Below are positions 25,203 to 27,483 of a stretch of 36,464 nucleotides of DNA, piece after piece. The stretch is from the IMG/VR virus record IMGVR_UViG_3300003690_003736, positions 1 to 36,464 of that record, one strand, 5' to 3'. Every line of letters begins with the position of its first letter. The first letter of the stretch is position 1. Source of the DNA: a virus. The notes under the pieces were generated by a model. The model saw only the letters and a program-made list of their open reading frames with translations, was not told where the DNA came from and searched no databases. A program made the translations under genes and the position numbers.

Positions 25203-25463
25203 TCAGTCATGCGTGAAATCGCTTTTAAGTGCCCTCAGTGCGGCCATAAGACCCTCAAGGCCACTCCCGACCCCGATAAGGAGACGCCCGTCGTCTGCGA
25301 CCGTTGTGGCAAAAAGACGCCCTACGGGGATCTCGTGAAGGACGTCGAGAAACAGGCGGCCAAAGCTTTCGAGGACCGGTTTCGGGACATCTTCAAGAAG
25401 TAGCTGGGCCTCGCTGAGGTAGGCGCGGAGCGGCGCTGTGTCGACCTGAAGGGTTACGTTCAT
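25203..25463 (-). CDS. Small ORF following the CII-like gene, antisense to the zinc-ribbon gene
   Basis: Open frame of 86 codons whose ATG overlaps the stop of the CII-like gene (ATGA) and has GGGGGTGA upstream. The first 23 residues (MNVTLQVDTAPLRAYLSEAQ) lie outside the opposing gene and look like a normal phage protein start. The rest overlaps the plus-strand zinc-ribbon gene completely. Either both strands code, or this frame is a coupled remnant. No family recognised. Confidence 0.45.
   Translation of the reverse strand: MNVTLQVDTAPLRAYLSEAQLLLEDVPKPVLESFGRLFLDVLHEIPVGRLFATTVADDGRLLIGVGSGLEGLMAALRALKSDFTHD
25209..25403 (+). CDS. Zinc-ribbon protein, ECs_2282-like
   Basis: Protein of 64 residues with two CxxC knuckles (FKCPQCGHKTLKA and VVCDRCGKKTPYGDLV) and a helical C-terminus (AAKAFEDRFRDIFKK). 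This is the pattern of the ECs_2282 family of putative zinc-binding proteins found in phages. GGAG ribosome site nine bases upstream. It is transcribed opposite to the PR operon and lies entirely within a minus-strand frame of 86 codons. Its promoter is not obvious. Confidence 0.7.
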   Translation: MREIAFKCPQCGHKTLKATPDPDKETPVVCDRCGKKTPYGDLVKDVEKQAAKAFEDRFRDIFKK

Positions 25464-25846
25464 GCGTCACCCCCAAACAGGCGCTCCGCACGCTCAGCAA
25501 TCTTTGCAAGCGCCTTGGTGGCGCCGATGTATTCCCGCTGGAGCTTCGCCCGTTCGTCCTCCGGCTCGAGCGGCTGCGGGCGGCTGTATCCGCATTCGTC
25601 AGCCATGAAGAACATGGCGGCGGACGAACCCTGCTCCCGGGCGCGGCGCATGATGAAAAGCATCTGTTCCAGGCCTAGCTTCTCGGCCTTGGCCGTATTG
25701 ATGCAGTCGGAAAGCCAGCGGCCCGCAGCTTGCGGGTCCGCTTCCGGCTTGAGCATCGCGCCCACCACCTTCGGCCCGCCCAGCATCAGGATGTCGGTGC
25801 GAAGCGCCTCGAAGATGTCTTCGTGAAAGAGGGTTGCCTGCTCCAT
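25460..25846 (-). CDS. CII-like regulatory protein (phage regulatory family)
   Basis: Protein of 128 residues. N-terminal FHEDIFEALRTDILMLGGPKVVGAMLKPEADPQAAGRWLSDCIN has a helix-turn-helix-like pattern (about 15-50), followed by a helical part ending LAKIAERAERLFGGDA. The pattern is that of small phage regulatory proteins at the CII position, after cro and before the initiator. AGGAGAGAG ribosome site. A 10-base direct repeat resembling CII sites lies just upstream. Assignment as lysogeny activator is by synteny and weak pattern. Confidence 0.6.
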   Translation of the reverse strand: MEQATLFHEDIFEALRTDILMLGGPKVVGAMLKPEADPQAAGRWLSDCINTAKAEKLGLEQMLFIMRRAREQGSSAAMFFMADECGYSRPQPLEPEDERAKLQREYIGATKALAKIAERAERLFGGDA

Positions 25847-25907: not shown

Positions 25908-25940
25908 ATAAAAAGCGCCACACGGCTATGCAGCGCTTTC
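25908..25940 (-). terminator. tR1-like terminator overlapping the end of cro
   Basis: On the minus strand AAAGCGC and GCGCTTT flank a 14-base loop and are followed by TTATTTG. Located between cro and the CII-like gene, as tR1 in lambda. Confidence 0.65.
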
Positions 25941-26105
25941 TTGGTCGGCCTTGAGCTCGCCCTGGGTGAGGACCTGGATTTGGTACTGCCGGCCCTCGGG
26001 GACGCCCTCTTCCGGCCATTCGCGGACGGACTGGTAGCGGATTCCAAGGGCGTCTGCGGTCTGCTGAACACCACCGAAGAATTCGATGACCTCTGACTTC
26101 TTCAT
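25926..26105 (-). CDS. cro: Cro-type repressor
   Basis: Protein of 59 residues, close to P22 Cro (61). MKKSEVIEFFGGVQQTADAL and GIRYQSVREWPEEGVPEGR follow the P22 Cro pattern (KDVIDHFG..., ALGISDAAVSQW, IPEKDAYRLE). Ends in YQIQVLTQGELKADQ. AGGAGCC ribosome site. Divergent from cI across the operator region. It would bind the same operators and switch off cI and early transcription. Confidence 0.88.
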   Translation of the reverse strand: MKKSEVIEFFGGVQQTADALGIRYQSVREWPEEGVPEGRQYQIQVLTQGELKADQESAA

Positions 26106-26132: not shown

Positions 26133-26162
26133 ATTAAGGCATACCTTAATGATAACCGTCAA
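26133..26162 (-). promoter_or_regulatory. Promoter PR (cro, CII-like and replication operon)
   Basis: On the minus strand TTGACG (26162-26157), 18-base spacer, CTTAAT (26138-26133). The -10 box lies in the operator at 26134-26149, so repressor binding would block it directly. Confidence 0.6.
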
Positions 26163-26197
26163 GCAGAATGAAGGCATGCCTTTAAGGTCTGCCTGTA
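26134..26197. promoter_or_regulatory. OR-like operator array between cro and cI
   Basis: Three copies of the operator: TTAAGGCATACCTTAA (26134-26149, perfect 6-base arms), TGAAGGCATGCCTTTA (26169-26184, contains the perfect palindrome AAGGCATGCCTT) and a degenerate TTAAGGTCTGCCTGTA (26182-26197). The first covers the PR -10; the other two precede the cI start. The same motif recurs downstream of cI. Confidence 0.85.
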
Positions 26198-26201
26198 CTA
26201 T
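26196..26201 (+). promoter_or_regulatory. Candidate PRM -10 giving a leaderless cI mRNA
   Basis: TACTAT, eight bases before the cI ATG and next to the degenerate operator. No clear -35 element. A start here would place the 5' end at or very near the ATG; no ribosome site exists upstream of the ATG. Confidence 0.4.
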
Positions 26202-26208
26202 TCCGGCC

Positions 26209-26898
26209 ATGAATGAATATGCAGATCGGGTGCGGCAACTGCTGGTTGCCAGGGGCGTGACGGATCGCGAAATGAAAAGCGAGCTGGCGGACGCCTGCGG
26301 CATCAAATACCAGTCGGTAAAGGGCTGGTTTGACGGCACCAGCAAAAGCATCACTGCCGTGAACCTCGCCAAGATCGCTCGGCGATGGAACGCCAACCTG
26401 GACTGGCTGATTACCGGTCAGGGGCAGATGCTTGGTGCCGCCCACCATATTGCCGAGCCCCAGGCGCCCTATGGCGACGACGTAAGCCCTGGCCCTTCTG
26501 TATCTGGCCAAATACCCATTATCAGCTACGTCCAGGCCGGCGAGTTCTGCGAAGCGGAAGATCCGTTCGAGCCGGGCATGGCTGACGAATGGTTGCCGTT
26601 CCGGCCGCCCGGCGCCGGCCCGCGCACCTATGCTCTGCGCGTCGATGGCGAAAGCAACTCACCACGAATCCGTAATGGCGAAATCGTCATTGTCGACCCT
26701 GACCGGACGCCGGATAGCGGCAAGTTCGTGGTGGCCAAGCGCCACAGCGACGCGAAGGTCACGCTGAAGCAGATCCAGTACAACGAAGGGGAGCCGTTCT
26801 TGAAGCCCGGCAACCCGGACTGGCCGGAGCCAATCATCAAGATAGACGGCGACTGGAGCGTCTGCGGCGTGGTGGTCGGCAAGTACGACCCGATGTAG
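26209..26898 (+). CDS. cI: CI-type repressor with LexA-like autoproteolysis domain
   Basis: Protein of 229 residues from MNEYADR (an earlier in-frame ATG at 26149 lies inside the operators). N-terminal helix-turn-helix (about 20-45: EMKSELADACGIKYQSVKGWF, then LAKIARRWNANLDWLITG). C-terminal peptidase S24 domain: cleavage site Ala110-Gly111 in SYVQAGEF, catalytic Ser149 in VDGESNSP, general-base Lys187 in VTLKQIQ. The RecA-stimulated self-cleavage therefore looks intact, so the prophage should be inducible by DNA damage. Flanked by operator arrays on both sides. Confidence 0.95.
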   Translation: MNEYADRVRQLLVARGVTDREMKSELADACGIKYQSVKGWFDGTSKSITAVNLAKIARRWNANLDWLITGQGQMLGAAHHIAEPQAPYGDDVSPGPSVSGQIPIISYVQAGEFCEAEDPFEPGMADEWLPFRPPGAGPRTYALRVDGESNSPRIRNGEIVIVDPDRTPDSGKFVVAKRHSDAKVTLKQIQYNEGEPFLKPGNPDWPEPIIKIDGDWSVCGVVVGKYDPM

Positions 26899-26917
26899 CG
26901 CCAGCCCAGACTGATCC

Positions 26918-26942
26918 GAGCCCGCCTTGCGCGGGCTTTTTT
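26918..26942 (+). terminator. Rho-independent terminator of cI
   Basis: GCCCGC - CTTGC - GCGGGC followed by TTTTTTG, 20 bases after the cI stop and just before the OL-like operators. Confidence 0.9.
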
Positions 26943-26974
26943 GTGCCCATCCGTGACCGACCAGTCACAAATAA

Positions 26975-27036
26975 TTGAGGAATGCCTTACTTTTTATTAA
27001 GGAATGCCTTTACACGCTTTTTAAGGTATGCCTTAA
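26975..27036. promoter_or_regulatory. OL-like operator array downstream of cI
   Basis: Three operator copies: TTGAGGAATGCCTTAC (26975-26990), TTAAGGAATGCCTTTA (26997-27012) and TTAAGGTATGCCTTAA (27021-27036), centres 22 and 24 bases apart. The last is the exact reverse complement of the operator over PR. Lambda-like double control by one repressor. Confidence 0.85.
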
Positions 27037-27037
27037 T
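27009..27037 (+). promoter_or_regulatory. Promoter PL
   Basis: TTTACA (27009-27014), 17-base spacer, CTTAAT (27032-27037). The -10 hexamer is the same CTTAAT, in the same place relative to the operator palindrome, as in PR. Confidence 0.65.
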
Positions 27038-27075
27038 GATCCCATCAACACGGACAACCCGCAGGGGAGCGAGAT

Positions 27076-27483
27076 ATGAACACAGCACTTTTGATTTACC
27101 TCTACATCGTCGCCGGCAACTTCGCATCGGCATTTGCGGCCGCAGCTTTCATCTTGGCTATTGGCTACTTCGTGCCGCTATCCGTGATGGGACTCTTTAG
27201 CAGCTTCGGCTCTGACACTCACTGGAGTGGCGACGAGTTGAGCCCAGAAAGCAAAGGCTTCATCGCGATGCGTCGGCACTTCAAGTCCGTCGTTATCGCC
27301 CTGGCGTTTCTTGGCTCCGTACCTGCCCTCTACCCCGACAAGGACGACGTGGCCTGGATTCTTGGTGGCGCTGCCGCTGTGCATGTTGCTCAGACAGAAG
27401 AGGCCAAAAAGCTGCCCGACAACCTGCTTAGGGCTGCCAACACCTTCTTGGAAGGTATCTCCGAAACCGAATCCGAACAGTAA
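27076..27483 (+). CDS. Membrane protein, first gene of the PL operon
   Basis: Protein of 135 residues with a GGGGAGCG ribosome site. Two or three hydrophobic segments: about 5-41 (LYIVAGNFASAFAAAAFILA, probably one long or two short helices), about 71-86 (VVIALAFLGSVPALY) and a weaker one at 92-103. The C-terminal ~30 residues are acidic (EGISETESEQ). No family recognised. In lambda this place is held by N; this protein does not look like an antiterminator. A superinfection-exclusion role is possible (inference from position and membrane nature). Confidence 0.7.
   Translation: MNTALLIYLYIVAGNFASAFAAAAFILAIGYFVPLSVMGLFSSFGSDTHWSGDELSPESKGFIAMRRHFKSVVIALAFLGSVPALYPDKDDVAWILGGAAAVHVAQTEEAKKLPDNLLRAANTFLEGISETESEQ

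Follow-up and report, generated by a model that had tools for sequence, protein, structure and literature searches.

The window analysed here, a whole virus record of 36,464 bases, very probably contains a complete lambda-type immunity region in which one repressor would act on both OR and OL, Cro would compete with it, and self-cleavage would release it. The proposal that a single repressor controls PR and PL as in lambda gained strong support from relatives; across ten immunity types, OL co-varies with OR and with the DNA-binding domain of CI. The window appears to hold a new lambda-type switch, and the pattern of exchange across its family, an unusually clear view of how immunity specificity is swapped, seems the more interesting part.

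Architecture of the immunity region

The layout of the region is that of lambda: cI and cro are divergent with operators in between, a second array of the same specificity covers PL beyond the other end of cI, PL leads into a recombination/early operon that ends near the integrase, and PR leads into replication genes. As annotated in the window, the PL side encodes, rightward, a small membrane protein, an AAA/Sak4-like annealing protein, SSB, and an integrase, and the PR side encodes, leftward beyond cro, an O-like replication protein and DnaB. The first gene of the PL operon (27076..27483, + strand) specifies a 135-residue membrane protein of phrog_3878, function unknown, and the same gene is first under PL in several immunity types. 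At the cII position, after cro, a gene (25460-25846, - strand) encodes a 128-residue protein of phrog_24214, which had no match in a Pfam scan; it is retained in L039, L045, and L046, whose types differ in cI and cro. At the DNA level, the nearest phage record aligns with no more than 17% of the left 25 kb, at 78% identity.

CI (26209..26898, + strand; 229 residues) has an N-terminal helix-turn-helix domain with recognition helix GIKYQSVKGW and an S24 self-cleaving C-domain (PF00717, E=2e-19), and it aligns with lambda CI (3bdn, E=1e-11), in the C-domain including the VQAG cleavage site. Cro (25926..26105, - strand; 59 residues), with recognition helix GIRYQSVREW, belongs to the P22_Cro family (PF14549, E=6e-20; 71.2 bits against a curated cut-off of 30.2; structure 1rzs, E=1e-6), and in this it resembles the c2/cro system of phage P22. 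The P22 operators are AT-rich with an AAG core, as are those of the window, and probably differ from them in half-site spacing. Within immunity types, the recognition segments of Cro and CI agreed to an extent reached in 1/200,000 permutations, or in 3/200,000 with an unselected local alignment, the Cro segments having been aligned by eye in one of these two tests. Cro therefore probably reads the same operator motif as CI.

The original prediction placed six sites of the form TTAAGG-N4-CCTTAA around cI, three between cro and cI and three after the cI terminator. All were found where expected, and they are the only sites with two mismatches or fewer in the 36-kb window; first-order Markov simulations of the window gave a mean of 0.18 such sites and a maximum of 2. 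OR1 (TTAAGGCATACCTTAA, 26134..26149; no mismatch) lies within PR and is followed by OR2 (TGAAGGCATGCCTTTA, 26169..26184; two mismatches) and OR3 (TTAAGGTCTGCCTGTA, 26182..26197; two mismatches), the last sharing 3 bp with OR2. On the far side of cI are OL3 (TTGAGGAATGCCTTAC, 26975..26990; two mismatches), OL2 (TTAAGGAATGCCTTTA, 26997..27012; one mismatch), and OL1 (TTAAGGTATGCCTTAA, 27021..27036; no mismatch), which lies within PL. The sites over PR and PL are, as was claimed, exact reverse complements, and hence both give TTAAGGTATGCCTTAA when read in the direction of their promoters. The distance between the arrays, put at approximately 0.9 kb, is 887 bp from the centre of OR1 to that of OL1.

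By consensus scoring, PR (26133..26162, - strand) consists of a -35 element TTGACG (26157-26162), an 18-bp spacer, and a -10 element CTTAAT (26133-26138), an architecture that recurs in relatives, while PL (27009..27037, + strand) has TTTACA (27009-27014), a 17-bp spacer, and CTTAAT (27032-27037). Both promoters do carry the predicted common -10 hexamer at the same place relative to the operator, and this hexamer is made from an operator half-site; in nearly all immunity types, an operator lies inside the spacers of PL and PR. A likely -10 element for PRM, TACTAT (26196..26201, + strand), was recognized in the sequence 7 nt upstream of the cI ATG; its promoter score is weak and the -35 element of the candidate is poor by consensus scoring. 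The cI mRNA is predicted to be leaderless.

Downstream of cI, a terminator hairpin (GCCCGCCTTGCGCGGGC, 26920..26943, + strand) is followed by a T run and then by an inverted repeat, GTGAC-N6-GTCAC (26953..26968), which is the sole copy in the window and is kept in most types and in the distant phages L052 and L053. The sequence AAATAA comes next, and then OL; the distance from the start of the repeat to the end of OL is 88 bp in type A, the type of the window, and 78-81 bp in the other types. The repeat may be the site of another regulator. The spacer between GTGA and TCAC in the CRP consensus is N6; assignment as a CRP/Vfr site was rejected, as this spacer is N8 in the repeat. To the right of OL is a constant boundary (CATCAACACGGACAACCCGCAGGGG, 27043..27067, + strand), which includes a likely ribosome site, is found in 18 viral stretches, and marks where homology between types restarts.

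Ten immunity types with matched operators

Searches with CI identified 25 viral and four genome loci. Ten immunity types were distinguished (A, B, C, D, E, G, H, I, J, and K). Their CI DNA-binding domains are only 14-48% identical and mostly unrelated, and six of the types share 83-98% identity in the C-terminal domain of CI. The operators are TTAAGG-N4-CCTTAA in type A, ATGAG-N4-CTCAT in B, ATGTAC-N5-GTTCAT in C, AACAC-N5-GTGTT in D, TTAGC-N3-GCTAA in E, ATCAAC-N5-GTTGAT in G, a sequence around AGCATGCT in H, TAACC-GCC-GGTTA in I, ATGGG-N4-CCCAT in J (CBW1004C-Prop1), and TAAGCATGCTTA in K (Pseudomonas phage MPK9). The pairs of types with N-domains of 37-48% identity (B-J, C-G, and E-I) have equal half-site spacer lengths within each pair.

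A scan of relatives for co-variation of operator and repressor, proposed as a check with the original prediction, revealed agreement between OL and the OR of the same phage throughout the ten types. With the best 14-mer as the measure, and with OL picked by eye for J and K, the matching was perfect and none of 200,000 permutations was as good; for the other eight types, in which OL was set solely by the constant right flank, no pairing of OR with OL among the 40,320 possible attained the observed score except the true one. The similarity of OL followed the identity of the CI N-domain (Mantel r 0.86; 0/20,000 permutations) and much less that of the C-domain (r 0.26). Moreover, N-domains of types E and J keep the operators of their type on two different C-domains each (L012 and L052 for E; L050 and L053 for J). 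Co-variation of repressors with binding-site motifs has been described for cluster A mycobacteriophages (PMC6550527), and the diversity of CI is high among Stx phages (PMC8951638).

Within type A, L003, L004, and L005, the close relatives whose sequence extends far enough, all have the downstream array. They retain OR1, OR3, and all three OL sites, and their OR2 is a weaker match with three mismatches and an intact AAGG-N4-CCTT core (AAGGNNNNCCTT). In further relatives, an almost unchanged CI C-domain is combined with a different N-domain, Cro, and OR, and OL there carries that different operator. The claim of a new specificity was likewise supported: among 2.9 million viral contigs, paired arrays of this kind with a matching CI occurred only in the phage group of the window, to which the TTAAGG-N4-CCTTAA operator is accordingly taken to be confined, and double sites of type A outside this group comprised one tandem repeat and matches apparently due to chance. 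The end of an unrelated virus contig, L062 (12189-12434), carries a TTAAGG-like unit in tandem repeats.

The Pseudomonas phages MPK9, PSA04, and YA3 have the operator TAAGCATGCTTA with a matching OL, a CI N-domain 48% identical to that of the window (MPK9), and a 34/13 layout of OR; their half-site is different and their CI C-domain just 42% identical. An OR layout of 34-35/13 is thus common to types A and K, the 13-bp step of K having been read by eye. The left boundary, used as a search anchor for additional types, returned known contigs only. Type H (L039 and L045) has a short repressor of approximately 117 residues without the self-cleaving domain between the same flanking sequences, and to judge from this its induction must differ from that of the other types. 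A literature search, with most subscription journals outside its scope, provided no description of this phage group and no paper on CBW1004C-Prop1; to our knowledge, the ten matched sets of repressor, Cro, and operator are mostly undescribed. Each set combines the helices of repressor and Cro with the operators of OR and OL, and with half-site spacers of 3, 4, or 5 bp the sets offer a natural resource on protein-DNA recognition.

Probable operation of the switch and the distance between OL and OR

From these sequences we infer CI binding, autoregulation, RecA-triggered induction, and contact or looping between OL and OR. CI produced from PRM would bind six sites of one specificity, three in OR and three in OL, and thereby silence PR (cro and the replication genes, leftward) together with PL (the recombination genes, rightward), with contact between OL and OR made through CI oligomers. 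In lytic growth Cro, with a recognition helix like that of CI, would compete for the same sites, and following DNA damage RecA-triggered self-cleavage of CI at VQAG would free both promoters.

The region resembles that of phage lambda in its divergent PL and PR flanking cI, the trio of operators at either promoter (in type A), the S24 C-domain of CI with its VQAG cleavage site, and the probable leaderless mRNA from PRM; the cargo of relatives sits where lambda has rex. Unlike lambda, the window has an unrelated operator sequence, an OL-OR distance of 0.9 kb without rex-like cargo, and an OR spaced 35 and 13 bp with OR2 and OR3 overlapping. Lambda-like spacing, with three OR sites approximately 20-25 bp (two turns) apart, is not found in type A; it is 24/24 in types B and J and 24/23 in E and I. 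The two OR spacings add up to 48 bp in type A, as in B and J, and OR2 of type A appears displaced by about one turn, hence its overlap with OR3. Given the 3 bp shared by OR2 and OR3, two dimers probably cannot fill both at once, in which case control of PRM in type A should differ from that in lambda.

The operator sequences and repressor N-domains of HK022 and phiKO2 probably differ from those of the window. Like it, the HK022 CI and phiKO2 CB switches each have a single repressor gene and a short OL-OR distance (approximately 700 and 630 bp), and both, together with lambda repressor, were observed to loop in a loopometer study in which related lambda-type repressors looped at 0.63-2.3 kb (PMC8053113). 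By this analogy, and given the homology of its C-domain to that of lambda CI, OL-OR looping is plausible in the window. It is possible, though we favour it less, that the arrays are bound and act locally, OL merely repressing PL. OL comprises two sites in most types, three being confined to type A. Among relatives, 0.46 to 3.1 kb separate the cI ATG from OL (0.84 to 3.1 kb in type A alone), such that no constant spacing or helical phase is kept. The end of OL lies 145 bp beyond cI in L003, 894 bp in L004, and 2375 bp in L005, the longer distances in the latter two being due to inserted cargo genes. With the same operators at OL-OR distances of 0.9 to about 3.2 kb, type A constitutes a ready series for the study of looping.

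Exchange around a constant C-domain

Pairwise alignments between types delineated two replaced blocks, one from about the end of cro to about codon 90 of cI and the other comprising the OL core of 57-67 bp. Between them the C-domain, most cargo, and the flank preceding OL are homologous, and homology restarts at the first base after OL. For example, L004 (type A) and L009 (type D) share about 93% identity over cI positions 286-1437 and once more from position 1582 onward, and their cro-OR-N-domain segments and OL are unrelated. Lambdoid immunity regions are classically swapped as whole blocks, and OR and OL lie within 1-3 kb of each other; they might thus have been inherited as one contiguous block, their match saying little about function. 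This is very improbable: the homologous sequence between the replaced blocks means that OR and OL are not simply one travelling block, and a contiguous exchange was rejected on these alignments, which contradict it for several pairs. Likewise, the C-domain of the window is nearer to those of types B and C (98%) than to others of type A (86-91%). The joint exchange of the DNA-reading half of CI with both sets of its targets is therefore strong natural evidence of one switch. That the array beyond cI serves a different regulator (e.g., Cro only) or is a decayed duplicate of OR is highly improbable, for although Cro probably reads the same motif and the OL1 core is an exact reverse complement of OR1, a matching OL under a promoter is kept in ten operator types and tracks the CI N-domain.

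One repressor acting on both arrays is thus the preferred reading, and immunity specificity changes through two linked, non-adjacent exchanges around a constant domain. A single contig, L055, is mismatched, having CI and OR of type I with OL of type C. Its 920 bp upstream of OL are 100% identical to the matched type I contig L056, and a 540-bp piece of its cargo is 100% identical to the type C contig L028; an assembly chimera is therefore plausible, and L055 may also be a true OL-only recombinant.

More broadly, the family may represent a combinatorial form of immunity, in which a constant self-cleaving CI C-domain is joined to swappable cro-OR-N-domain cassettes, a separate OL cassette changes in step, and type A follows a different logic, a reading that we regard as evenly poised. 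The OL cassette, roughly 60-70 bp long, lies 1-3 kb from the cro-OR-N-domain cassette, with constant boundaries. A constant C-domain with interchangeable cassettes implies an induction module common to heteroimmune phages, which, if the combinatorial reading is true, could form mixed CI dimers in one cell; the overlapping OR2 and OR3 of type A would then be a switch logic unlike that of lambda. The paired exchanges raise two questions, viz., how matched OR and OL come to be replaced in concert, and whether double lysogens show interference between repressors that have the C-domain in common. An engineered hybrid of the lambda N-domain and the 186 C-domain, which also loops (PMC8053113), is a laboratory counterpart of the natural CI chimeras. 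Gifsy-1 and Gifsy-3 are similarly heteroimmune relatives with different operators and a common route of inactivation, both being inactivated by the same antirepressors; unlike CI of the window, their repressors are short and lack self-cleavage (PMC3121763).

The cargo slot at the position of rex, between cI and OL, is empty in the window and occupied in L004, L006-L015, L037, L046, L052, L053, L055, and L056. A PADLOC/Pfam scan of the cargo proteins assigned no function to most. Their contents include small CxxC proteins and coiled-coil membrane proteins, a PemK/MazF-like toxin in L055 and L056, and the candidate defence protein PDC-S42 in L052 and L053.
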